Below, piece by piece: positions 48,800 through 63,391 of a DNA stretch of 64,000 nt. The stretch is from Natrinema gelatinilyticum (lineage in GTDB: Archaea > Halobacteriota > Halobacteria > Halobacteriales > Natrialbaceae): assembly GCF_024266705.1 (NCBI RefSeq), contig NZ_CP100757.1, forward strand, positions 496,001 through 560,000, written 5' to 3'. The position numbers were made by a program, and so were the translations under genes. The notes beneath the pieces were generated by a model. That model saw only the letters and a list, made by a program, of their open reading frames with translations. It did not search any database and was not told the DNA's origin. How positions within the stretch are numbered: position 1 is the stretch's first letter; every line of letters begins with the position of its first letter.

Positions 48800-49322
48800 A
48801 ACGCTTTCGCGGTATTGGATCCAGGATCCGCTCATCGTGACCGACGCGGGAATCGAATCGGCTGGGATACTCGACCGAATCCGCGACGAAATCGAACTAT
48901 CCGCCACGATCTATCACGCGTCGACCGAGCCATCCACCGATGACTTCGAAGATCTGCCGACCGAGGCCGTCGACGGAGTCGTCGCGATTGGCGGCGGTTC
49001 GTGTATCGATACGGCAAAACTGGCGGCTGCACTGCTCGCCCACGGTGGAGACGCCGTCGACTACCTCGGCGTCGATTCCGTGCCAGGACCGATCGAGCCG
49101 CTAATTGCGGTGCCGACGACGAGCGGGACCGGATCGCAAGCGACACAGACTGCCGTTATCTCCCACGACAATGTCAAGCGAGGCGTGAGTGACAGCCACC
49201 TTCGTCCCGATGTTGCGCTCGTCGATCCCACGCTCACGTTCGATCTCCCGCAGTCGGTGACCGCCCGTTCGGGGTTCGACGCCTTCGTCCACGCGCTCGA
49301 GTCGGTAATTGCCCGCGACTAC
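48800..49322 (+). pseudogene. iron-containing alcohol dehydrogenase, N-terminal part (broken)
   Basis: Reading from DPLIVTDAGIESAGILDRI, the frame contains AVDGVVAIGGGSCIDTAKLA (NAD-binding GGGSxxDxAK), IAVPTTSGTGSQATQTAVI and LPQSVTARSGFDAFVHALES, the metal-site region. The first ~40 residues are missing at a TnpB-element right end. The frame breaks at about 49322, before the left end of element B. The protein oxidised or reduced an alcohol/aldehyde before disruption. The C-terminal piece is at 50958-51241. Confidence 0.85.
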
Positions 49323-49423
49323 CGGTGGGTCGAACCACGACCGATCACCTACCTAAAACAGCGAGAGAGTCCCGCCGTTTACGCCGGGCGTGAATCGCGT
49401 CACTCGACGACGCGAACCACCGG

Positions 49424-49564
49424 TTACTCCCCGGTCGGAGTCTCAAGGTCGTCGGCGGCGTGGATCAACATCCCACGCCACGTCAGGCCGTGTTCGTTCT
49501 TCACACGTTTAATGCGCTCGTACTGTTCGTCGTCAGGAACTTCGATGTTAACGTGGTTCGACAC
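49424..49564 (-). CDS. small divergent protein of TnpB element B
   Basis: This 46-residue frame (GTG start at 49564) reads SNHVNIEVPDDEQYERIKRV, then KNEHGLTWRGMLIHAADDLE. A short beta strand followed by two helices suggests a ribbon-helix-helix fold, as in the small ORF of element A, although the sequences differ. It is transcribed away from tnpB, with 56 bases between starts, so it could repress both. The same small gene accompanies related elements in haloarchaea as far as I recall. Confidence 0.6.
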   Translation of the reverse strand: MSNHVNIEVPDDEQYERIKRVKNEHGLTWRGMLIHAADDLETPTGE

Positions 49565-49620
49565 ACCATCTACGAGAATCCGTAGGTCTATGTTAGTTCC
49601 GCTCGTATACAGAAGTAGCG

Positions 49621-50901
49621 ATGAAGCGCACCAACGAGTTCGAAGTAATCCCCCAGTCCGACGAGGACGAGGAGTTGCTTCGACGTCTGTTGGACGCTTC
49701 AGCCGCACTCTGGAACGAAATAAATTACCAGCGTCGAACCAACTTCGACGACCCGGACGGCGACGTCTGGGAGATCGACGAGTACCGCGGCCGGTACGGC
49801 GGTACGCTCGGCGCTTCGACCGTTCAGCAGATCGAACGCAAGAACCGCGAAGCGTGGGGTTCGTTCTTCGCGCTCCGAGAGAAGGACGAAGCCAACGGCA
49901 AACCCGGATTCTGGGGCAACCAAGACGAGGGTCGAGACCTTCGGACGTACATCCGAAACATGTCGTACTCGGTCGAGTGGGGCGAATACTCACGCCTCGA
50001 GATTCTTGTCGGTCAAGACCTGAAAGAGGAGTACGGTCTTGGATACCAAGAACGACTCCGTCTCGAAGTTCGGGGCGATCCGAACTGGAAAGAGTACGAC
50101 AAACAGGGCCGGTTGGAACTGCATTACGACGATGTGAGCGAGACGTTCAGGGCCTTTCAGCCAGTCACAATCGACAATTCTCGACTGGCACACCCACTGG
50201 CGGACGAAACCGCCGCTCTGGACATCGGCGCAAACAATATCGTCGCCTGTACGACCACGACCGGCGAGCAGTACCTGTACGAAGGCCGCGACCTGTTCGA
50301 ACGGTTCCGCGACACCACGCAACGAATCGCCGAACTCCAGTCCAAACTCGAGGACGGTCGGTACAGCTCGAAGCGAATCGACTCGCTGTACCGACGACGG
50401 ACGCGACGGCGCAACCACGCGATGGACGCGCTCTGTCGGGACTTGATCGAACGACTGCACGACGAGGGCGTTTCAACGGTGTACGTCGGCGACCTCACGG
50501 ACGTACTCGAGACGCACTGGTCGGTTCGGACAAACACCAAGCTGCACAATTTCTGGGCGTTCCGGCGGTTCGTCGGACGGTTCGCCGATACCGCCGAGGA
50601 GTACGGCATCACTGTCGAAGTACGAACGGAAGCGTGGACCTCGCAGACGTGTCCGAACTGCGGTTCAACCGAGGACACGACCCGGCACCAAGACACGCTG
50701 ACGTGCTCGTGCGGCTTCGAGGGTCACGCGGATCTGGTCGCGAGCGCGACGTTCCTGAGACGGCACGAAGAAGTAGCACGGCCGATGGCACGGCCCGTGT
50801 GCCTTAAGTGGGACAGTCACGACTGGCTGGAGTCACCACGCTCTCTCCGTCCCAACGAGGAGCACACGAACCCGCAAGTTGCCTCCGTGGACTCGGCGTA
50901 G
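49621..50901 (+). CDS. tnpB: TnpB family protein, type B
   Basis: This 426-residue TnpB differs strongly from type A. RuvC-I is [13 protein letters not shown] (Asp201). The zinc ribbon is CPNCG...CSCG (344/347, 362/364). The last RuvC acid is Asp371 in GHADLVAS. At the RuvC-II position, where most TnpB proteins have V-E-D-L, it reads VYVGDLTDV: Gly290 replaces Glu, with Asp291 next. I recall VGDL in other haloarchaeal members of this clade, so this is a lineage trait rather than damage. Whether it cuts DNA is open. Its 3' end runs into the right-end hairpin and presumed omega RNA. Confidence 0.85.
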
Positions 50902-52294: not shown

Positions 52295-52846
52295 CTACAC
52301 GATTTCGACGTCGCCGTTCTGGACGGTTATATCGAGTAGCGACGTGACGTCGTGTGAAATATCGGCCAACGCGTCTTCACCGCCCACCTTTCGCAACACG
52401 ACGATAATATCGACGATATCGACCCCCATAGAATCGAGAACGTCGGTAATCGCCCGCAGCGTTCCCCCAGTACTGAGCATATCGTCCAGCAGGAGAACCG
52501 AGTCCGTTTCTCCGACGTCGTTGATGTACATCTCGCTCTCCGAGTATCCAGTCCGCTGTGTCAACGAAACCTCACCGTCCAGACCGTACTCGCGTTTCCG
52601 AATAACGACCAGCGGAATGTCAGAGAGAAGGGACACGGCAGTCGAAATATGAATCCCCATCGCTGCGGGGGTGACGATCTTGTCGACGTCCTCGAGATCG
52701 GCGACTGCCACGATGCGCGACGCCACTTCTCGAAGGAGGTCCGGCTCGAGTTTCGGGACGCAGTTACTGATCGGATGAACGAGATACTCGTAATCTCCCT
52801 TATTGATGATGGGCGCTTCGTGGATCGAACGTTCCAATTTCTCCAT
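52295..52846 (-). CDS. hpt: hypoxanthine/guanine (purine) phosphoribosyltransferase
   Basis: This 183-residue enzyme transfers phosphoribose from PRPP to purine bases for salvage. It reads [20 protein letters not shown] at the start, [20 protein letters not shown] near residue 60, [13 protein letters not shown] near 90 and the PRPP motif [12 protein letters not shown] near 130. It closely follows the archaeal Hpt/apt-like family in length and order. The ATG at 52846 matches the usual N-terminus; an alternative lies five codons upstream. It stands near purine uptake and adenine deaminase genes but is not in an operon with them. Confidence 0.88.
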
Positions 52847-53376
52847 ATGGGCACTTGCCACAAAGCGAATAAAAGATGTTGGTTGCGGCGCCCCAGAGCC
52901 GATGGGCAGAAGTTCGAATTATGAGAGAAAAATAGCCATAAATGGAATTCTATCGGGGATAAATACCTGTGGGAATATTATTAATAGGACAAAGAAGTGC
53001 CTGTTCGAGGGCTATTATTGTATTCTTCCCACACTATATCTCCTTTTATGTTGCTTTATTCTAAATATATCTATATTTATAATACACCGATTGTTTTGTT
53101 TTATGCGCTATATCTGTGCTATCGTCTCGTTTTAGAATGTCCGCCACTCGAGGCGCTGACGGTGAGCGGAGTCACAATTACGGAGTTACTCGCCGAATCG
53201 ACGATCGAATGGAGCCACGGTCGGTTCCAGCACTCGGCGTTCGTTTCACATGGATCGTTTGAGGAGATAAAGAATTCCATTCCGTTCTGTTGGAACCTGC
53301 CAGGGAGAATCGGCCCGACGCAGCGTGCGAACGGGGACGACGGACGTGACCGAAGGAGGTCGCACACCGAAACCAC
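52847..53376. other. AT-rich intergenic island, no gene recognised
   Basis: From about 52925 to 53140 the sequence is markedly AT-rich with T-runs and no coding signal. From 53140 to 53376 it returns to normal composition with open frames, but no domain is recognised. The hpt promoter should lie at the left edge. Confidence 0.5.
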
Positions 53377-54129
53377 TCACTTGACGACGACGAGGCGACC
53401 GGTCTCGAAGGACGTGACGAGCCCGCGGTCGAAACGCGAGGTGCGCTCGAGCGCGGCCGAAAGCACGTCCGTCGCCCGACGCTCGAGGGTGGCGGTATCG
53501 GCTTTGTTCACGATTGGGACGACGGTCGCGTCCGCGGGAACGTTCTTCAACCCGCCGCCGGGGTGTGCGAGCACGTGGCCGACTGCGGTGGTGGTAATCT
53601 CCTCCCCCGCGGAGAGAGGTGCGCACCGTTCGACCCGTTCGACTCGGTGGGCGACATCGTCCGTGAGCGGCCGTCCGACGGCCCGAACGGAGACGACTGG
53701 GACGACGACCGTACTCGCGGTTGGAATCGGCGGTTCGTCGGCTCCCGGCGCTTTGAATTCGCGCATTCTCGCACCGTCGGCCTTGACGAGGAGCCAGTCG
53801 AACCGGCCATCCGCAAAAACCGAATCCAGGACGCCCGGCGCGTATCCACGCACCTTCTTGTCGACCCGGTCCGGATCGGACACTCGGGCGCTCGCGAGTG
53901 CGACCGGCGCCGATAGCTCGTCCACGTCGGCCGAAACACAATCGGAGTCGACGAGCGCGAGCGGAACGTCCGGTGGTGGGGGCATCTGCACCGACGTGGT
54001 GTACCCCGCATCGAGGCCACGGTCGTCCGCCTCGGCAACCAGGTGACCGATGGCGGTCTTTTTCCCCCCTGCGCCGACGAACGAAACGAGTTCGTCGTCC
54101 TCGAGCCCGAGCCCATCCGCGAGGTCCAT
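53377..54129 (-). CDS. yqeC: selenium cofactor biosynthesis protein YqeC
   Basis: This 250-residue protein matches YqeC, a P-loop protein linked to selenium-dependent molybdenum hydroxylases. It has LVSFVGAGGKKTAIGHLVAE (P-loop variant) at residues 14-33, then DWLLVKADGARMREFKAPG near 115 and IVNKADTATLERRA near 210. Family genes nearly always occur with selD, yqeB and xdhC, all found next door. The exact step is not established; roles in adding the labile selenium to the Mo centre have been proposed. It is divergent from tusA-selD, with 120 bases between starts. Confidence 0.85.
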   Translation of the reverse strand: MDLADGLGLEDDELVSFVGAGGKKTAIGHLVAEADDRGLDAGYTTSVQMPPPPDVPLALVDSDCVSADVDELSAPVALASARVSDPDRVDKKVRGYAPGVLDSVFADGRFDWLLVKADGARMREFKAPGADEPPIPTASTVVVPVVSVRAVGRPLTDDVAHRVERVERCAPLSAGEEITTTAVGHVLAHPGGGLKNVPADATVVPIVNKADTATLERRATDVLSAALERTSRFDRGLVTSFETGRLVVVK

Positions 54130-54249
54130 AGCTATCCCTCACTGGCCGACGGCATGAGCGTTACGGAGCGACCGAGAAGCCGGACGAGGCGGGTCCACGA
54201 GGGCCGGTCGCGGCGATACAATTATTCGCACGGACTCGGTAGAGACCCT

Positions 54250-54507
54250 ATGGAACGTGTGGACGTCACGGGAGAAGTGTGTCCGCGCCCCGCTCTCATC
54301 GTCCGGGAACGGTTGTCCGAACTGGATCGATCCGACGAACTGCTCGTTCGTGGCGATTATCCGCCGGCCGAGTCCAACCTCCGTCGAACGTGTCGGAAAC
54401 ACGGATACGAGGTCGAGGATCGTCCGGTCCCCGACGGCGACGGCGGCTTCGAGTTGCTCATTCGTCCGCCCGCCGACTCGAGCCCATCGGGGGATGGAGA
54501 TGACTGA
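54250..54507 (+). CDS. TusA/SirA-like sulfur (or selenium) carrier
   Basis: This 85-residue protein has the TusA motif CPRPALIVRERLSELD, with the Cys-Pro acceptor at residues 10-11, and a beta-alpha-beta fold ending FELLIRPP. TusA proteins carry sulfane sulfur; related YedF proteins (TusA plus DsrE) belong to selenium operons. Its stop overlaps selD, so both are co-translated. In this setting it may carry selenium or sulfur to the molybdenum hydroxylase maturation proteins. That is inferred from context. Confidence 0.85.
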   Translation: MERVDVTGEVCPRPALIVRERLSELDRSDELLVRGDYPPAESNLRRTCRKHGYEVEDRPVPDGDGGFELLIRPPADSSPSGDGDD

Positions 54508-55528
54508 CGGCGACGAGGATCGTCCGCCGGCCCTGACCGAATACGCGGAACTCCACGGCTGTTCGTGCAAGGTCGAACAGGCCGAACTCGACTCGTTGCT
54601 CGCGGACGTCGGATTATCGAGCGCGCAGGAGGACCTCCAGGTCGGCGTCGGCGAGGACGCGAGCGCTCGCGTGATCGCCGACGGGCTCAGTCTCGTGTCG
54701 ACGATCGATTTCTTCACACCGATCGTGGACGATCCGTACGAGTTCGGTCGCGTCGCAGCGTGTAATGCGGCTAGCGACGCCTTCGCGACCGGCGCCAGCG
54801 ACGATCTGACGTTCCTCGTCGTTCTCGGGCTTCCACGGGAAGTGACGGGCACAGCCCCGGACGTTCTGCGAGGGATCGTCGACGCGGTGACCGAAATGGG
54901 AGGGGTCGTCGCGGGCGGGCACACCATCATGAACCCGTGGCCGATCGCCGGCGGCACCGTCGTGGCCACGGCGCCGTCGGATCGCATTCTGCGAACGAGC
55001 GGTGCCTCGGCATCCGACCGGCTGTATCTGACGAAACCCCTCGGAACGCAACCGGCGATGGGCGCACTGCGCGTACAGGACGGGGAATTCGGCGAGACGA
55101 TCGCCGAAACGACGACACGACCCGTTCAGGACATCGCCGACGAGGCGCTCGCGTGGATGACGACACCCAACAGGGAGGCGATGCTGGCAGCCCGCGAGTA
55201 CGCGACGGCCGCGACCGATATCACCGGCTTCGGGTTGCTCGGGCAGGCCCGCGTCTTGGCGGAGAACGCCGGCGTCGGCGTCGAACTCACACACCTTCCG
55301 CTTATCGACGGTACCCCCGAGCTCTCGCGGCTCTTCGGCTACGGCCTCGAGGACGGAGAGAGCGCAGAGACGAGCGGTGGACTCTTGCTTTCGGTTCCAG
55401 ACGAACGCACCGACGCGTTCGAATCCGCCCTCTCGGAAGCGAACGTCTTCTACCGTGACGTCGGCCGCGTCACTCCTGGCTCGAGCGCGTCGCTGGTCGA
55501 TCCGACGATCGAACGAATCACCGGCTGA
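54494..55528 (+). CDS. selD: selenide, water dikinase (selenophosphate synthetase)
   Basis: This 344-residue enzyme makes selenophosphate from selenide and ATP. The catalytic loop is LHGCSCKVEQAEL: Cys23 matches the essential Cys/Sec, with Cys25 and Lys26 following. It then has VGVGEDASARVIADGLSLVS, STIDFFTPIVDDPYEFG and ACNAASDAFATGA, and VAGGHTIMNPWP in the ATP-binding part. DITGFGLLGQARVLAENAGV marks the second half. The active residue is Cys, not Sec. No selA/selB or Sec genes are in view, which fits selenophosphate use for a Mo cofactor rather than selenocysteine. The first ATG (54494) overlaps tusA. Confidence 0.92.
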   Translation: MEMTDGDEDRPPALTEYAELHGCSCKVEQAELDSLLADVGLSSAQEDLQVGVGEDASARVIADGLSLVSTIDFFTPIVDDPYEFGRVAACNAASDAFATGASDDLTFLVVLGLPREVTGTAPDVLRGIVDAVTEMGGVVAGGHTIMNPWPIAGGTVVATAPSDRILRTSGASASDRLYLTKPLGTQPAMGALRVQDGEFGETIAETTTRPVQDIADEALAWMTTPNREAMLAAREYATAATDITGFGLLGQARVLAENAGVGVELTHLPLIDGTPELSRLFGYGLEDGESAETSGGLLLSVPDERTDAFESALSEANVFYRDVGRVTPGSSASLVDPTIERITG

Positions 55529-55580
55529 CTGTCTGCAGTGCTCGATTCGGGCTTCGGAGGTCGGTCGCGGCGAACGCAGA

Positions 55581-57158
55581 CTAGGAGAGCTTGAGCAACG
55601 CTTCCAGGACGCCACCGCCGAGACAGAGCGCCTTGTCCGAAATCTTCGTGTAGTCGACGTCGTCGCGGGGATCGACGTCGCCGAGTTTCGCGCCGGCGGA
55701 AACCGAAACGCCGTCGTGAACGAGCCCCCGTACGAGCCCCCCGATTTCCGTGACGACGGGGTCATCGTCGACGGAGCCAACGATCGTCTCCGCCTCGACG
55801 ACCTCGCCGATTTCGACCGACGGCGACCACACGCCGTCGCTCGGTGCGCGGAGCACGCGTTCGTGGGTGTACCCGCGACGGTCGCCCGGTTCACCGTCGT
55901 ACGGACTGGGTTTGCCGTCGTAAATGACGTGACCGAGTTCGTGTCCGCGATCGGTTTCGACGACCGCGTCCACGTTTTCGCTGGCGTCGAACCCCGGACC
56001 GAGGCCGACGACGACGTCCGCGAGCGCTCGCCGGGTTCCGGTGTCGAACTTTCCTTTGGCCATGATCGCATCGACGACGGCTCTGGGCTCGAGTTCGTCG
56101 ATGACGGTCCCGTCGGGGTCCTCGAGCACGGGTACCTCGTCGTCGGCGAGAACGGCGAGCGCCTCGTCCACGTCCGCAACGCGACGGCCCGTTACGCCCT
56201 GGACGGTGACGTCGCCGTCGTACATCGCCGCCCCGAACGCGACTGCACGTCGGACGACGGTCGGTTGGGCCGTCTCGGTCACGATAACCGGAAACCCCGC
56301 CTGATGGAGGCGGTAGACCACGCCGCTGCCGAGGTCTCCGCCGCCCCGAAGGACGACGAGGTCATCGATGTCGTGTCGGTTCGCACGCTCGCCGGTCGCA
56401 TCGTAGCGATCGCGGTGCAGTTCAGCGAGGATCGAGAGCACGACGTCCTCGGGCCCACCCCCGCCGAGGTCGAGACCGACGGGCGCGCGGACGCGAACGA
56501 GGTCTCGGCGCGAGTACCCGTCCTCGAGCAACGAGTCGAAGATGTGCGCCGTCTTGTCTTCGCTGGCGACGACGCCGACGTAGCCGGCACCGCCGTTGAG
56601 AGCGGCGGCGACGGCCTGCCGGTCGAACGTTCCGCTTCGTGTCGCGACGACAACCGCCGTTTCCGACGTCATCGGGAGCCCCGCGAGGACCTCGTCGTAG
56701 GGGCCGTGAACGACGTCGACGTCCGCGGAAAACCGCTCCGGTGACGCGTACTCCTCGCGGTCGTCGACGACGGTGACGGCGTAGCCGAGTCGCGTTCCCA
56801 TCGCCGCGAGTTCGACGCCGATGTGTCCGCCGCCCGCGACGTAGAGTCGCGCACGACCGCGGATCCGATCGATAAAGACGTCCATGGATCCCCCACAGAC
56901 CATCCCGGTGTTCCCACCGGGGCGCAGTTCGTAGGTCCGGACGCCCGGATCGGCATCACCGCGGAGGACGTCGCGGGAATCCTCGACTGCCAGTCCTTCC
57001 ACCGTTCCGCCGCCGATCGTGCCGTACTCGTCGTCGTCGGTCACGAGCATTTTCGCCCCGACGTCGCGCGGCGCGCTTCCGTCTTTGTCGACGATGGTCA
57101 GCATCGAGGCCGGTCGTCCCTGCTCGACGAGGTCGTCCACGCGATCGAACAGCGTCAT
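55581..57158 (-). CDS. XdhC-YqeB fusion: molybdenum hydroxylase maturation factor
   Basis: Residues 1-255 are XdhC/CoxI-like (TIVDKDGSAPRDVGAKMLV, ELRPGGNTGMVCGGSMDVFI with the Mo-related Cys, then a Rossmann YVAGGGHIGVELAAM). Residues 265-525 match YqeB/EF2563, the selenium-dependent hydroxylase accessory: DLVVLRGGGDLGSGVVYRLH, EPRAVVDAIMAKGKFDTGTR and VVGLGPGFDASENVDAVVE. XdhC protects and sulfurates Mo cofactor for xanthine dehydrogenase-type enzymes; YqeB is a selenium-trait marker. They are usually separate genes. The start overlaps the upstream tusB-like gene by four bases, so translation is coupled. Confidence 0.88.
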   Translation of the reverse strand: MTLFDRVDDLVEQGRPASMLTIVDKDGSAPRDVGAKMLVTDDDEYGTIGGGTVEGLAVEDSRDVLRGDADPGVRTYELRPGGNTGMVCGGSMDVFIDRIRGRARLYVAGGGHIGVELAAMGTRLGYAVTVVDDREEYASPERFSADVDVVHGPYDEVLAGLPMTSETAVVVATRSGTFDRQAVAAALNGGAGYVGVVASEDKTAHIFDSLLEDGYSRRDLVRVRAPVGLDLGGGGPEDVVLSILAELHRDRYDATGERANRHDIDDLVVLRGGGDLGSGVVYRLHQAGFPVIVTETAQPTVVRRAVAFGAAMYDGDVTVQGVTGRRVADVDEALAVLADDEVPVLEDPDGTVIDELEPRAVVDAIMAKGKFDTGTRRALADVVVGLGPGFDASENVDAVVETDRGHELGHVIYDGKPSPYDGEPGDRRGYTHERVLRAPSDGVWSPSVEIGEVVEAETIVGSVDDDPVVTEIGGLVRGLVHDGVSVSAGAKLGDVDPRDDVDYTKISDKALCLGGGVLEALLKLS

Positions 57159-57406
57159 ACGAAGCTCGTCACCTCGTGATCGATCATGAGCGAGACCAGT
57201 TCGTCGTACGTGACGGTATCGATTCGATCGGGGAGGCTCAGACCGCGCATTTTGACGTCCCGTTCGACCGCCAGCGTCTGCATATCGAGTTCCGGGTCGA
57301 GCAAGACGCCATCCTGGATCAGGACGACGATTCCGTCGGTGTCGTTCGCCGCTGTTCGCAGTCCGATTTCAGCCATCGGTTTGTCTATCAGATACAACAT
57401 TGTCAA
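57155..57406 (-). CDS. DsrH/TusB-like sulfur relay protein
   Basis: This 83-residue protein reads MLYLIDKPMAEIGLRTAAND, then IVVLIQDGVLLD and ERDVKMRGLSLPDRI. It matches the DsrH/TusB fold. No Cys is present, so it lacks the sulfur-accepting Cys seen in some members and may be structural. It overlaps both neighbours by four bases in a TusD-TusC-TusB order, the usual layout of the TusBCD/DsrEFH hexamer. Confidence 0.75.
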   Translation of the reverse strand: MTMLYLIDKPMAEIGLRTAANDTDGIVVLIQDGVLLDPELDMQTLAVERDVKMRGLSLPDRIDTVTYDELVSLMIDHEVTSFV

Positions 57407-57756
57407 AAGTCGAGGGTGTGATCCGCTCGTTCGATCATCGACGCGATTTCCTCGCCGGATCGGACACCGACGTCGGACGCGATCTCGTCTCGCGTAACGT
57501 CTCGCGCCGCCATCGACGCCTCGTCGACGAACAGGTCACCGTCCTCTTTGGCCAGATCGACGAGGTGACCGGTCATGTTGAGCGCATCGCGATCGATGGC
57601 CGCTCGAGCGGCGTAGATTCCGTCCTGTGTGAATACGACTGAGACGTCGTGTCTGTCGAAGCCGGCTGCGACACCGCGGGCCGCCCGGAGTCCTTCGGGG
57701 ACGTGAACGCGCCCGTACGGACTGCGGGTGAGCAGGACGACGACGTCCCGTTTCAT
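57403..57756 (-). CDS. DsrF/TusC-like DsrE-superfamily protein
   Basis: This 117-residue protein reads KRDVVVLLTRSPYGRVHVPE, then GVAAGFDRHDVSVVFTQDGI and AKEDGDLFVDEASMAARDVT. It fits DsrF/TusC, a DsrE-like fold without catalytic Cys. It overlaps the genes on either side by four bases. The family forms a hexamer with TusB and TusD that passes sulfur from TusA. In this operon it precedes XdhC-YqeB rather than tRNA-thiolation or Dsr genes. Confidence 0.78.
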   Translation of the reverse strand: MKRDVVVLLTRSPYGRVHVPEGLRAARGVAAGFDRHDVSVVFTQDGIYAARAAIDRDALNMTGHLVDLAKEDGDLFVDEASMAARDVTRDEIASDVGVRSGEEIASMIERADHTLDF

Positions 57757-58124
57757 AGTGAGATCACCCTGTCGGCCTCCCCGAGCATGTCAGCCAGATC
57801 CGGTAGCAAGCCGATCTCGACGCCGTCGGGGTAGTCGGTTTCGGCGTCGATACCGCGTGCGTTCACACAGAGACCGCAACAGAAGACCGTTGCACCGTCG
57901 TCGATCAGGTCCTGAAACTTCTCCGTGGGCATCTCGTCGTACAAACTTGCATCCGAACAGTCGGGGAGGTGCTGGTCGGAAACCGGTACGTACGCGCCGT
58001 CGAGATAGTGAAAGTACGTGACTTCGTGGCCGGCGTCGAGCGCCGCCCGGCCGAGTTCGTAGGCGGTCCGCCACCGTTCGCTGTCGAAGGGGCCGCCGCT
58101 GAGCAAAAACCCCACGTGGATCAT
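57753..58124 (-). CDS. DsrE/TusD-like chalcogen relay protein
   Basis: This 123-residue protein reads MIHVGFLLSGGPFDSERWRT, then AALDAGHEVTYFHYLDGAYV, and the Cys-bearing loop TVFCCGLCVNARGID (Cys near residue 84-88), the place of the DsrE/TusD acceptor Cys. It is the first gene of a tightly overlapping four-gene operon. Known relatives receive persulfide from TusA. Here the acceptor could carry selenium or sulfur for molybdenum cofactor maturation, an inference from the neighbours. Confidence 0.8.
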   Translation of the reverse strand: MIHVGFLLSGGPFDSERWRTAYELGRAALDAGHEVTYFHYLDGAYVPVSDQHLPDCSDASLYDEMPTEKFQDLIDDGATVFCCGLCVNARGIDAETDYPDGVEIGLLPDLADMLGEADRVISL

Positions 58125-58251: not shown

Positions 58252-59922
58252 CTACCCGATCACGACGTCGACGTGGTCCCAGCGCTCAACGTCGACCAAC
58301 CCCCGATTCGTCAGCCGATACTCGGGGATCACTTCGAGGGCGAGGAACGAGAGAGTCATCAGTCCATGACGGTCGAGACCGAGGGTCCCCGCGCAATCGG
58401 TGACCGATTTGAACTGTTCGTAGACAGACGCCAGCGGATCGTCGGACATCAGGCCCGCGACCGGCAGCGGGACCGACGAAATCTCGTCCCCCTCGCGTTC
58501 CGGATCGCACACGGCGATGCCGCCGTCGATGACCTGGACGTGGTTCGCGACTCGAGCCATCGCATCGTACGACGTGCCCGCGACGACGCAGTTGTGCGCG
58601 TCGTGTGCGACCGTCGACCCGATCGCGCCGCGTTCGAGGCCAAGCCCGCTGACGAAACCGCGACCGATACCGGCGTCGTTACCGTGCCGTTCGATGACCG
58701 CGATCGGAAGCACGTCCTCGGTGGGTGCCGGACGGATCGTTCCGTCGGCGACGGGAAGGGACGCCTCGGTACGTCCGGTCTGGATCCCCTCGACGAGGTC
58801 GATAACGCGGACCTCGGCGCGCTCTGCGGTCGACGCCGGGGCGGCGAGCGCGAGGTCCTCAGGCGCGACCGGATCGAAATCGACAGTTCCCGTCGAGAGC
58901 GCGGTCGATGGCGGGTCGCGATCGGTGGCCGTGGGATCGAGTTCTCCGTCGACGAGGACGTGGTCGACGCGCCACGACTCGAGGTCCTCGAGCAGCACCA
59001 GATCGGCCGGGGCACCGGGTTCGATCCGTCCGAACGGAAGGCCGTACGATTCGGCCGTGTTCAGCGTCGCCATCTGCACGGCCTCGACCGGGTCGACGCC
59101 CTCGTCGATCGCTTTCCGCACTGCGAAGTCGATGCCGCCGTTTTCGACCAGATCGACCACGTCGCGGTCGTCCGTACACAGCGACAGCCGACGCGTGGGA
59201 ATGTCGTCGACGAGACCGACGAGGTCGGCGAGGTTCTTCGTCGACGACCCTTCGCGTACGTAGACTCTGAATCCGAGGTCGACTTTCTCTCGAGCCTCGG
59301 CTCGGGTGATACTCTCGTGATCGTTGTCGAGGAATCGTGCGGCTTCCTGGAGGTCCGATCCGGAGACTCGCGGAAGGTGGCCGTCGACGGTCAATTCTCG
59401 CTCGCGCGCGGCTTCGATCTTCGCGTGGAGGTCCGCGTCCCCACCGACGAGGGCAGGAAGGTCCATCACCTCCGCCAGCGCGACGACGAGTTCGTGATCG
59501 AGTAGCGACGAGACGTCGTCAGCGTCGAGTCTCGCACCGCCGTCCTGCAAATTCGAGGCTGGAACGCTCGACGGGACGCCGAACCTGACCTTCAACGGGG
59601 TTTGCGTCGCGTCTTCGAACACGGCCCGAACGCCGTCGGCGCCGAGGACGTTCGCGATCTCGTGGGGATCGTGGACGATGCTGGTCACCCCGCGCGGAAC
59701 CATCGCTTCGCCATACTGCGCCACCGTGACCATACTCGATTCGACGTGGACGTGAGCGTCGATCAGCCCCGGTGCAACGTACGCTGCCTCGAGTTCTCGG
59801 TCCGCTGGCCGTTCCTCGAGTGCCACGATCTCTCCGTCGTCTATCGCGATCGCCCGGTCCTCGAGAACGCCCGTGTTGACGTTGACGAGCGCGCCTCGAA
59901 CGAGCGTGTCGACCCGGTTCAT
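58252..59922 (-). CDS. ade: adenine deaminase
   Basis: This 556-residue amidohydrolase converts adenine to hypoxanthine and ammonia. Metal and family motifs are GLIDAHVHVESSM near residue 55, GVTSIVHDPHEIANVLG near 85, FGVPSSVPAS near 115, ELTVDGHLPRVSG near 180, and the C-terminal HDAHNCVVAGTSYDAMARV near 440. Length is right for the Ade family. It feeds hypoxanthine to a purine hydroxylase, which would need the Mo/Se maturation genes downstream. It starts the minus-strand run but is separated by 127 bases from the DsrE-like gene. Confidence 0.93.
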   Translation of the reverse strand: MNRVDTLVRGALVNVNTGVLEDRAIAIDDGEIVALEERPADRELEAAYVAPGLIDAHVHVESSMVTVAQYGEAMVPRGVTSIVHDPHEIANVLGADGVRAVFEDATQTPLKVRFGVPSSVPASNLQDGGARLDADDVSSLLDHELVVALAEVMDLPALVGGDADLHAKIEAARERELTVDGHLPRVSGSDLQEAARFLDNDHESITRAEAREKVDLGFRVYVREGSSTKNLADLVGLVDDIPTRRLSLCTDDRDVVDLVENGGIDFAVRKAIDEGVDPVEAVQMATLNTAESYGLPFGRIEPGAPADLVLLEDLESWRVDHVLVDGELDPTATDRDPPSTALSTGTVDFDPVAPEDLALAAPASTAERAEVRVIDLVEGIQTGRTEASLPVADGTIRPAPTEDVLPIAVIERHGNDAGIGRGFVSGLGLERGAIGSTVAHDAHNCVVAGTSYDAMARVANHVQVIDGGIAVCDPEREGDEISSVPLPVAGLMSDDPLASVYEQFKSVTDCAGTLGLDRHGLMTLSFLALEVIPEYRLTNRGLVDVERWDHVDVVIG

Positions 59923-60139: not shown

Positions 60140-61525
60140 TCAGTTTTCTTGCGTGGCAGCGGCCTCGGCCGGTGACGGGTCGTCGCCGTCGACCGGTTCC
60201 TCGAGGCCCATCTCGTATCCTCCGTCAGAACGGGGGACGAGCGTATTGAGCAGGACCGCACAGATTGCGGTCACGATGATCGCGTTTCCGAAGAAGATGC
60301 TGACCCCGGTTGGCATCGCCTCGAAGATCTCGGCTCGAACTTCGACGCCGAGGCCGAGACCGATCGAAACAGCCATAATGACCATGTTCCGGCGGTTCAT
60401 GCGCTCGTTGAGGAAGATGAGCCGGAGGCCGCTCGACATCACCATTCCGAACATGACGATCACTGCACCACCGAGGACGGCGCTCGGAATCGTCGCGACG
60501 ACGGCGCTGACCTTCGGAATGAATCCGAGCACCAGTAACGCGGCGCCGCTGATACCGACCACGTAGCGGCTCATCACGCCGGTGAAGTTGATGATCCCGA
60601 CGTTCTGCGAGAACGTCGTCAGCGGGAACGCGCCGAAAATGGCGCCGACCGAACTGCCGAGACCGTCGACGAACAGCCCACCACCGATTTCGTCGTCGTC
60701 CGGGTTTCGGCCCTCTGCAGCTGTGATTCCGGACATATCACCGATGGATTCTATCGCAGCAGTAATGTGAATCGCGGTGATTGTCAGGATGGCGACTGGT
60801 TCGAACTGGAACCCAAATCGACCTGGGATCGGGAGTGCGAACCAGCCGGCCTCCGCGACCGTGGAGAAATCGACGACCCCCAGGGCGACGGCGGCGATGT
60901 AACCGACGATGATGCCGATCAGAATGCTGAGGAGTCGCCAGATCCCCTCCATGAACAGATTCATACCGACGGTGATCCCCAGAACGAGCAACGCGAGGCC
61001 GAGGTTCGTGTACGACCCGTAATCGGACGCGCCGACCCCGCCCGCCATGTAGTCCATCCCGACCGGAATCAGGTACAGACCGAGGATCATGACGATGAGA
61101 CCGGTGACGAGCGGTGGGAACAGCCCCTTGATTCGATCGTACTGCCAGCCGATCAAGATCTCGACCAGCGCACCGATGACGACCGCGCCGAAGACCGCAT
61201 CGAGCCCGTATTGTCCGCCGATAGCTATCGCCGCGCCGACGAATGCGAAACTCGTCCCCATTACGACCGGGAGTCTCGCACCGACTGGGCCGATTGGGAA
61301 GACCTGGACGAGCGTCGCCAGGCCGGAGAATACCAGTACCATCTGAATGAGGTACGTCGTATCACCGCCGCTGACACCGACCGCACCGGCGACGATGATC
61401 GCGACGGCGACCGTCGGAACGAACATCGCCGAGACGTGTTGCAATCCAAGCAAAATTGCCTCTGGTATTGGTGGTTTGTCTTCTAATTCGTACACCAAGT
61501 CAATCGATCCGTCATTGGATGACAT
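60140..61525 (-). CDS. NCS2-family purine/uracil permease
   Basis: This 461-residue membrane protein has about 14 helices. Family signatures are EAILLGLQHVSAMFVPTV at the start, FSQNVGIINFTGVMSRYVVG near residue 305 and VLGGAVIVMFGMVMSSGL near 355. It matches the NCS2/NAT family (xanthine, urate, uracil), not the AzgA branch. The position between adenine deaminase and AzgA-like genes suggests xanthine or urate. An acidic C-terminal tail is typical of haloarchaea. Confidence 0.9.
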   Translation of the reverse strand: MSSNDGSIDLVYELEDKPPIPEAILLGLQHVSAMFVPTVAVAIIVAGAVGVSGGDTTYLIQMVLVFSGLATLVQVFPIGPVGARLPVVMGTSFAFVGAAIAIGGQYGLDAVFGAVVIGALVEILIGWQYDRIKGLFPPLVTGLIVMILGLYLIPVGMDYMAGGVGASDYGSYTNLGLALLVLGITVGMNLFMEGIWRLLSILIGIIVGYIAAVALGVVDFSTVAEAGWFALPIPGRFGFQFEPVAILTITAIHITAAIESIGDMSGITAAEGRNPDDDEIGGGLFVDGLGSSVGAIFGAFPLTTFSQNVGIINFTGVMSRYVVGISGAALLVLGFIPKVSAVVATIPSAVLGGAVIVMFGMVMSSGLRLIFLNERMNRRNMVIMAVSIGLGLGVEVRAEIFEAMPTGVSIFFGNAIIVTAICAVLLNTLVPRSDGGYEMGLEEPVDGDDPSPAEAAATQEN

Positions 61526-61698: not shown

Positions 61699-63135
61699 TT
61701 ATGTTCCAGATAGTACACCCCCCGCGGTGACGTAGTAATAGAGGACGAACGCCACGGCCAGCGCCCACTGTCCTGGACGGACATCGTCGAATTCACCCAT
61801 CGCCGCTTTGACTACCGGATAGCTGATGATCCCTGCCGCCAGCCCGTCAGCAATGGAGGCCGTAAGCGGCATGACGGTGATAGTGAGACCGCTCGAGATG
61901 AGCCAGGCTGGATTGTCCCAGTTGATGTCGGTCACCCCTCCCAGCATGATGAGTCCAACGACGACCAGCGCGAGATACGACGCGTACTGAGGGACCGCGG
62001 TGATCAGCGGAACGGCCAGAAGCGCCAGCAGGAAGCAAATCCCGACCGTGAGCGCCGTCATCCCGGTCCGACCGCCTTCCTCAACCCCGGCAGAGCTCTC
62101 GACGAAGGTCGTGACGGTCGACGTCCCGAGTATCGAACCGGCCGTGGTACCGACCGCGTCGGCCATGAGCGGTTTATCCATCTCGGGGAGGTCACCGTCC
62201 TCGTCGAGGAATCCGCCGAACTGCGAGACGCCGATCAGCGTGCCCGCGGTATCGAAGAAGTCGACGAAGAAGAACGTGAACACGACCAGAAGGAACGTCG
62301 CCGGCTCGATCTGGCTGAAGCCGTCGACGAACGCGCCGAAGAGCGGCGTGATATCGTACTGCGCCGAGGATAGTTCCGCGGGCGTGAGTACCCCTCGGTC
62401 GACGACGCCGCCGAGCGTGAGTCCCCAGCCGGCGAGCGCGGTCGAGATGATCCCCAGGATAATCGCACCAGTGATCCCCTTCGCGTAGAGAATGAGCGTT
62501 ACCCCGAGCCCCACAAGCGAGAGGAGCGCGACCGGGTTGGTCGCGACGTCGTTCAACTGGACCAGCGTCGCATCAGCCGCGACGATCACGTTCATTTCGA
62601 TGAGACCGAGCAACAAGAGGAACAGTCCGATACCGGCGCCGACGGCGAACTTGACCGGTTCGGGGAACAGTTCGATGATATACCGTCTCGCGCCGACGAG
62701 CGTCAACAGGATGAAGATGACACCCTCGACGAAGACGGCCGCGAGAGCCGTTTGCCACGGGACGCCGAGCCCGATGACGACGGTAAACGCGAAGTAGGCG
62801 TTCAACCCCATCCCCGGCGCCAAACCGAACGGACGATTCGCGTACAGGGCCATGACGAGAATGCCGATCACTGACGACAGGATCGTCGCGATGGCGATCA
62901 TCTGGAACACCGCCTGCGTGCCGTAGCCCTCTATCTGGATCGCCTGGGAGAGAATCGCGGGATTGACGACGATGATGTACGACATCGTGAGGAACGTCGT
63001 TATTCCTGCGATCACCTCCGTCTTCAAGTCGGTGCCGTGTTCTTCGAATCCGAAATACCCCGACAGCCACGACCTCGTTCGTTCGAACCCAAAGCGCCTC
63101 CTCAAGCCTGATTTCGTGCCAGTGGGATCTGACAT
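61699..63135 (-). CDS. AzgA-like adenine/guanine/hypoxanthine permease
   Basis: This 478-residue membrane protein has the AzgA start GITTFLTMSYIIVVNPAIL near residue 48, followed by PFGLAPGMGLNAYFAFTVVI and PLMADAVGTTAGSILGTSTV near 325. AzgA-type carriers import adenine, guanine and hypoxanthine with protons or sodium. The ATG at 63135 is preferred to the one three codons upstream. It is transcribed in the same direction as the NCS2 and ade genes and probably provides adenine to Ade. Confidence 0.92.
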   Translation of the reverse strand: MSDPTGTKSGLRRRFGFERTRSWLSGYFGFEEHGTDLKTEVIAGITTFLTMSYIIVVNPAILSQAIQIEGYGTQAVFQMIAIATILSSVIGILVMALYANRPFGLAPGMGLNAYFAFTVVIGLGVPWQTALAAVFVEGVIFILLTLVGARRYIIELFPEPVKFAVGAGIGLFLLLLGLIEMNVIVAADATLVQLNDVATNPVALLSLVGLGVTLILYAKGITGAIILGIISTALAGWGLTLGGVVDRGVLTPAELSSAQYDITPLFGAFVDGFSQIEPATFLLVVFTFFFVDFFDTAGTLIGVSQFGGFLDEDGDLPEMDKPLMADAVGTTAGSILGTSTVTTFVESSAGVEEGGRTGMTALTVGICFLLALLAVPLITAVPQYASYLALVVVGLIMLGGVTDINWDNPAWLISSGLTITVMPLTASIADGLAAGIISYPVVKAAMGEFDDVRPGQWALAVAFVLYYYVTAGGVLSGT

Positions 63136-63391
63136 ATGTTCCATGTTAAACTATATCAATAAAAAGGTTTCCTGGGTGAGGTGTCGAGCACACTGGTTTG
63201 CAACGGACCGACCGAAGTATGGCAAATCCCGACTCTCGGTGGCACACCAGGACAGCCGCTCGTTCGACGTCACGTTGGTATCGTTCGTACCGGAGATATC
63301 GAATCTAACGCAAACGGCGAACGTAACGGACGAATCCACCGATCTCACCGATTTCGAGGAATTGCGACGCGGGACAGAGTTCGTGACGGTG

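Follow-up and report, generated by a model that had tools for sequence, protein, structure and literature searches.

A DsrEFH-like gene triple within the selenium-dependent molybdenum hydroxylase locus of haloarchaea: a probable chalcogen relay

A 64,000-nucleotide stretch of Natrinema gelatinilyticum DNA (the window; contig C2:496001-560000 of a haloarchaeal genome of 5.4 Mb) contains a cassette of seven genes, in which yqeC, a tusA-like gene, selD and an xdhC-yqeB fusion stand together with three genes related to dsrE, dsrF and dsrH. YqeB and an orphan selD, with YqeC and XdhC as partners and Fe-S/Mo hydroxylase genes nearby, identify a maturation locus for selenium-dependent molybdenum hydroxylases (SDMH), enzymes that are further characterised by a labile selenium at their Mo centre. 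Comparison across 391 haloarchaeal genomes from 86 genera, 31 of which carry the cassette, supports the assignment of the DsrEFH-like triple to this selenium-cofactor trait, to which it appears to be dedicated. We consider it probable that, in the haloarchaeal SDMH maturation locus, the TusA-like protein works with a DsrEFH-like complex as a relay dedicated to a chalcogen, most likely selenium. Family models confirm all seven genes, with the coordinates below, as they had been listed in an earlier note made from the DNA alone.

53377-54129, minus strand: yqeC, selenium cofactor biosynthesis protein (TIGR03172, 167 bits against a cut-off of 73, 4.6e-49; present in all 31 cassettes)
54250-54507, plus strand: tusA-like sulfur/selenium carrier with a CPxP motif and invariant C11 and C48 (PF01206, 55.6 bits, 4.8e-15)
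54494 or 54500 to 55528, plus strand: selD, selenophosphate synthetase (TIGR00476, 258 against 125 bits, 1.3e-76)
55581-57158, minus strand: xdhC-yqeB fusion, molybdenum cofactor chaperone and selenium-cofactor maturation protein (TIGR03309, 341 against 220 bits, 4.3e-102)
57155-57400, minus strand: dsrH/tusB-like subunit, no conserved Cys (PF04077 above cut-off; TIGR03011 below cut-off)
57403-57756, minus strand: dsrF/tusC-like subunit, no conserved Cys (PF02635; TIGR03010 below cut-off)
57753-58124, minus strand: dsrE/tusD-like putative catalytic subunit with invariant C82-C83-G-L-C86 (PF02635, 9.5e-21)

The active-site motif HGCSCK of SelD is intact, and the XdhC-YqeB protein has both XdhC domains (PF02625 and PF13478) together with invariant C88 and C512. 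The tusA product gives weak matches to the YedF and TusA models, under their cut-offs (YedF TIGR03527: 25.5 against 110 bits). Two convergent units are formed, tusA-selD on the plus strand and dsrE-dsrF-dsrH-xdhC-yqeB on the minus strand. The last 8-14 nucleotides of tusA are shared with the start of selD. The minus-strand unit had been described as a four-base-overlap operon, which is correct for the dsrE/dsrF and dsrH/xdhC-yqeB junctions and not for dsrF and dsrH, which are 2 nucleotides apart.

The distribution of the genes carries most weight. A single set of 31 genomes has all three of yqeB, selD over its cut-off and full-length dsrE, and none of the three occurs in the other 360. The set spans 9 of the 86 genera, several of which also include genomes without these genes (in the genus of the window, 4 of 22 genomes have them); the hypergeometric p is ∼1e-46, with relatedness ignored. 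The earlier note had named DsrEFH-like genes apart from selD and yqeB as one finding that would count against it; the DsrE ortholog is in 31 of 31 genomes with selD and yqeB and in 0 of 360 without them, bar a single pseudogene remnant. The triple likewise tracks with one specific xanthine-dehydrogenase-like clade, the cassette hydroxylase mo1 being present at ≥75% identity only in the 31 genomes and reaching at most 63% elsewhere. Among plasmid records, too, matches to DsrE and the haloarchaeal XdhC-YqeB occur in one common set of 14. A weaker selD signal, under the family cut-off, occurs in 99 further genomes and probably comes from other AIR-synthase-type proteins. Matches to the Pfam DsrH model (PF04077) are confined to cassette copies, in 3 of 292 genomes; since this model misses most cassette copies too, the scan is weak evidence that haloarchaea have no other DsrEFH set. 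The collection was scanned with near-exact peptide patterns, which leave room for distant relatives outside the haloarchaea.

The one genome with a DsrE match and no yqeB is that of Natronococcus jeotgali. On its contig 102 (L102, 2367-2468 and adjoining DNA), codons 1-34 of dsrE run straight into codons 37-52 of yqeB; the DNA at the junction encodes MLITEDDKYGTIGGGT, corresponding to XdhC-YqeB residues 37-52 with 13 of 16 identical. The 20 kb read there yielded no dsrF, dsrH, selD, tusA or yqeC and no more of yqeB, and the remnant adjoins an intact ade, both purine permeases and a different hydroxylase. As an instance of DsrE without yqeB this genome is rejected, what it holds being a remnant with a dsrE::yqeB deletion junction. 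We conclude from the junction that a single deletion accounts for the loss of both dsrE and yqeB, the DsrEFH genes having gone with the selenium genes and not with the purine genes.

The gene order is invariant in the 31 genomes, in Natrinema caseinilyticum and in six further species: dsrE, dsrF, dsrH and yqeB in one direction, then selD and tusA in the opposite direction, then yqeC in the first direction again. The 4-nucleotide overlaps at dsrE/dsrF and dsrH/yqeB are kept in all 32 loci. Ratios of non-synonymous to synonymous substitution (dN/dS) are 0.02-0.10 for dsrE and mostly <0.3 for dsrF and dsrH. Because order and junctions are kept over 32 loci and dN/dS is low, we conclude that dsrE, dsrF and dsrH are real genes; chance open reading frames are ruled out by the same conservation and purifying selection.

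Judged by their sequences, the three proteins correspond specifically, if distantly, to DsrE, DsrF and DsrH/TusB, arranged in the order E-F-H with each matched to its counterpart. Profile matches link the DsrE-like protein to chain A of 2hy5 and to YchN, the DsrF-like protein to DsrF (2hy5_B, 3.9e-7) and the DsrH-like protein to TM0979; the predicted model of the last (predicted local distance difference test score, pLDDT, 86) has TM0979, TusB and DsrH as its best folds. The CCGLC motif of the DsrE-like protein is invariant (31/31), and no cysteine is conserved across cassettes in the DsrF-like and DsrH-like proteins. C83 falls in the same alignment column as the persulfide-carrying Cys78 of DsrE/TusD; in DsrEFH of Allochromatium vinosum, Cys78 of DsrE is the sole residue found with sulfane sulfur (PMC3397948). 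C83-G-L-C86 also has its equivalent in the CGxC motif that bacterial YedF carries in its DsrE domain, CGLC being aligned to CGAC in the Enterococcus faecalis protein. DsrEFH/TusBCD sulfurtransferase complexes are characterised as α2β2γ2 heterohexamers.

Part of this locus is not new. In the text available from two papers of 2008 (Haft & Self, PMC2276186; Zhang, PMC2432076), yqeC, a TusA/SirA-like gene, selD, an XdhC-YqeB fusion and hydroxylases are described on plasmid pNG700 of Haloarcula marismortui, a type of locus by which those papers recognise a third use of selenium, in selenium-dependent molybdenum hydroxylases. The premise of the earlier note, that orphan selD with yqeB and yqeC marks such enzymes, was thus already in print, as was the selD, yqeB, yqeC and TusA part of the locus, which leaves the DsrEFH-like triple as the new element within a known SDMH locus. 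The pNG700 locus (pNG7236-7246) agrees with that of the window in having yqeC, TusA-like, selD and XdhC-YqeB genes with two Fe-S/Mo hydroxylase pairs, and in lacking systems for selenocysteine and selenouridine; pNG700 also carries the DsrEFH-like triple, between hydroxylase and yqeB. The available text of PMC2276186 and PMC2432076 has no mention of the triple as part of the system, nor of the strict coupling, and a full-text literature search for DsrEFH with molybdenum and selenium gave only an unrelated match, with the triple not found named in the trait.

Comparisons with other chalcogen carriers place the triple more closely. According to a later survey (PMC5322559), archaea with the selenium cofactor trait are Halobacteriales only, and YedF is absent from archaea. 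Bacterial YedF (TIGR03527) likewise combines a TusA-type and a DsrE-type domain with CGxC and belongs to orphan-selD SDMH operons; in E. faecalis this fusion lies between selD and yqeC-yqeB, in agreement with the earlier statement that YedF belongs to selenium loci. In haloarchaea, however, TusA and DsrE are separate genes, DsrF and DsrH partners are added, and the scores are under the YedF cut-off. In sequence, the archaeal module resembles an unfused, expanded YedF. It shares with A. vinosum DsrEFH and Escherichia coli TusBCD the three subunits, the E-F-H order and the Cys78 equivalent in DsrE, but is under the family cut-offs, has an extra Cys (CCGLC), lacks the Cys20 of DsrH, is found in genomes without the acceptor DsrC/TusE and has XdhC-YqeB as its gene partner. 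The DsrE3A-DsrE2B-TusA proteins of Metallosphaera cuprina (PMC4175335) are also archaeal DsrE/TusA chalcogen carriers with protein-bound sulfur transfer, although of other DsrE groups. In the XdhC-NifS4 system of Rhodobacter capsulatus (PMC2997495) the cofactor is likewise bound by XdhC and receives its chalcogen from an external donor; that donor is a cysteine desulfurase, whereas the haloarchaeal genes beside XdhC-YqeB encode the DsrEFH-like set and SelD.

The relay that we favour would work as follows. SelD would make selenophosphate, and TusA would carry selenium on C11 as a protein-bound perselenide to or from SelD; the tusA-selD operon suggests that TusA works next to this enzyme. C83 of DsrE would pick up selenium and C86 would resolve or release it, while DsrF and DsrH would be partner subunits without a catalytic role. 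From this DsrEFH complex, which would be coupled in translation to XdhC-YqeB, selenium would pass to the molybdenum cofactor held by XdhC-YqeB. That protein would replace the Mo=O (or Mo=S) ligand by Mo=Se and insert the Mo=Se cofactor into the neighbouring Fe-S/Mo xanthine-dehydrogenase-like hydroxylases. We infer complex formation, the direction of transfer, selenium over sulfur as the cargo, and the substrate. Since XdhC receives sulfur from a desulfurase in R. capsulatus (PMC2997495), we infer by analogy that DsrEFH docks on XdhC-YqeB and passes the chalcogen to the bound cofactor; selenium is the likelier cargo because the set is restricted to selD genomes. The hand-over of selenium from TusA and DsrE-like proteins to XdhC-YqeB, as the earlier note had it, fits the anatomy of the locus and the conserved cysteines. 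More tentatively, and with somewhat less than even confidence, we suggest that the DsrEFH-like complex may be a true perselenide transferase, in which C83 of DsrE takes selenium from selenophosphate and delivers it to the cofactor on XdhC-YqeB; this would be the missing selenium-insertion step in the third biological use of selenium, and YedF, as a fusion, would have the same function in bacteria.

Selenophosphate as the selenium source of these hydroxylases is still unproven (PMC11448449). In Clostridioides difficile, deletions of yqeB and selD have a common xanthine/uric acid phenotype (PMC11448449). The DsrEFH-like genes, as tightly tied to the trait as selD and yqeB, are concrete and deletable candidates for the unsolved step from selenium to molybdenum, and a single deletion would be cleanly readable because no other use of selD was detected in this clade. 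If the relay is real, cofactor selenation would join sulfur oxidation and tRNA thiolation among the roles of the DsrEFH/TusBCD family.

Several observations count against the favoured relay. The DsrE-, DsrF- and DsrH-like proteins are under the NCBIfam cut-offs for TusD, TusC and TusB (19.6 against 89, 37 against 94 and 26.6 against 49 bits), and other members likewise have weak E-values; the profile match of DsrE to YedF is weak (probability 14%), and the AlphaFold model of DsrE is poor (pLDDT 56) and not usable. The DsrH-like protein is without the Cys20 that A. vinosum DsrH needs. The dsrEFH and tusA-selD genes are in separate convergent units, not one operon, and at least one bacterial locus of SDMH type, in Peptoclostridium, has no DsrEFH nearby, so that the triple is not universally needed. 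Support comes from sequence, from which the cargo, Se or S, is not readable.

One alternative, which we regard as unlikely, would put the relay upstream of SelD: TusA and DsrEFH would gather selenium or reduce it (selenite-derived perselenides, for example), and would deliver selenide to SelD or shield the cell from it, leaving XdhC-YqeB to use selenophosphate directly. The tusA and selD genes do overlap or nearly abut in nearly all loci, many Haloarcula loci have an ABC transporter of phosphonate/selenate type, and Haft & Self, in the available part of PMC2276186, put the related YedF before selenophosphate. However, it is to xdhC-yqeB and not to selD that dsrEFH is joined by overlap, and the triple often follows hydroxylase genes; in 24 of the 32 loci the distance from the end of such a gene to dsrE, on the same strand, is 48-111 bp.

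Distinctly less probable is a relay for sulfur, making a Mo=S that is later exchanged for Mo=Se or stripping sulfur from the cofactor for selenium entry. The DsrEFH/TusBCD and TusA proteins studied so far carry sulfur (PMC3397948, PMC4175335), and the XdhC-bound cofactor of R. capsulatus is sulfurated by a desulfurase (PMC2997495). Against this, selD accompanies the set wherever it occurs. In cassette-free haloarchaea, hydroxylases related to that of the cassette (identity up to 63%) are present and a DsrE ortholog is absent, and the genome of the window encodes 11 such enzymes, proteins with a MoCoBD_2 domain; on these gene counts we conclude that ordinary Mo=S enzymes do not need the DsrEFH set for their maturation.

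We reject, as very improbable, the reading that the triple is an unrelated operon riding on the same plasmid-borne cassette. Many cassettes are on plasmids, and that of the window, whose closest named relative is on a plasmid of N. caseinilyticum, is nearer to cassettes of other genera than to some of its own genus, so that the cassette probably moves as a unit, and between genera. Full-length dsrE is nevertheless never apart from yqeB in the 391 genomes, the junctions are nucleotide-exact, purifying selection is strong and the genes decayed together in N. jeotgali; between-locus distances correlate across the cassette proteins (0.73-0.96).

An archaeal TusA-TusBCD pathway for 2-thiouridine, beside the selenium genes by accident, is scarcely credible: all four proteins resemble these families, but the set co-occurs strictly with selD and yqeB and is absent from 360 haloarchaea, and the partners that a tRNA-thiolation pathway would need, which the earlier note had named as adverse evidence, are missing, DsrC/TusE being absent from all 31 cassette genomes and MnmA below its cut-off in each. 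Nor was SelU found in any of the 31, or a true tRNA-Sec with the Rfam model, which rules out a selenocysteine or selenouridine role for selD. Given these absences, neither tRNA thiolation, which is rejected, nor tRNA selenation explains the genes. The single tRNA-Sec score above the gathering threshold belongs to a tRNA-Ser(tga) of a Haloarcula (G051:C4:254358-254443), a false positive to beware of in surveys.

The surroundings of the cassette in the window are those of purine metabolism:

52295-52861, minus strand: hypoxanthine/guanine phosphoribosyltransferase-like gene (PF00156; ortholog annotated hpt in N. caseinilyticum)
58252-59922, minus strand: ade, adenine deaminase (TIGR01178 above cut-off)
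60140-61525, minus strand: xanthine permease, NCS2 (TIGR03173 above cut-off)
61699-63144, minus strand: second NCS2-family permease (PF00860)

The ade gene adjoins the cassette in one of its two arrangements. Two Fe-S/Mo hydroxylase pairs lie just past the end of the window (C2:561345-567720), their large subunits best matching XdhA xanthine dehydrogenase, and the selenium-containing molybdenum enzyme probably serves purine breakdown. Unlike in bacterial xdhABC, no gene for a subunit binding flavin adenine dinucleotide is among the listed neighbours of the cassette, in this or the other genomes, and the electron acceptor may for that reason differ from that of the bacterial enzymes.

A TnpB-like gene follows directly after the second hydroxylase (C2:567937-569163, L017:7937-9163, minus strand). 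Beside it, and near a gene like that for 5'-deoxyadenosine deaminase, is a second tusA-like gene (L017:9424-9696), 46% identical to that of the cassette. In many Haloarcula cassettes a phosphonate-type ABC transporter is found downstream of yqeC; on pNG700 (L014:22934-25498) its binding protein reaches 168.6 bits, against a cut-off of 250, with TIGR04553, a model for putative selenate-binding proteins, and the transporter may import selenium oxyanions. Elsewhere in the window, a reading frame for an iron-containing alcohol dehydrogenase (48837-50901, plus strand; PF00465 over the first ∼130 residues) runs into a TnpB-type insertion sequence element (49621-50901). The corresponding neighbourhood of N. 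caseinilyticum has an annotated enzyme of this kind of ∼395 amino acids, so that the gene in the window is probably disrupted.

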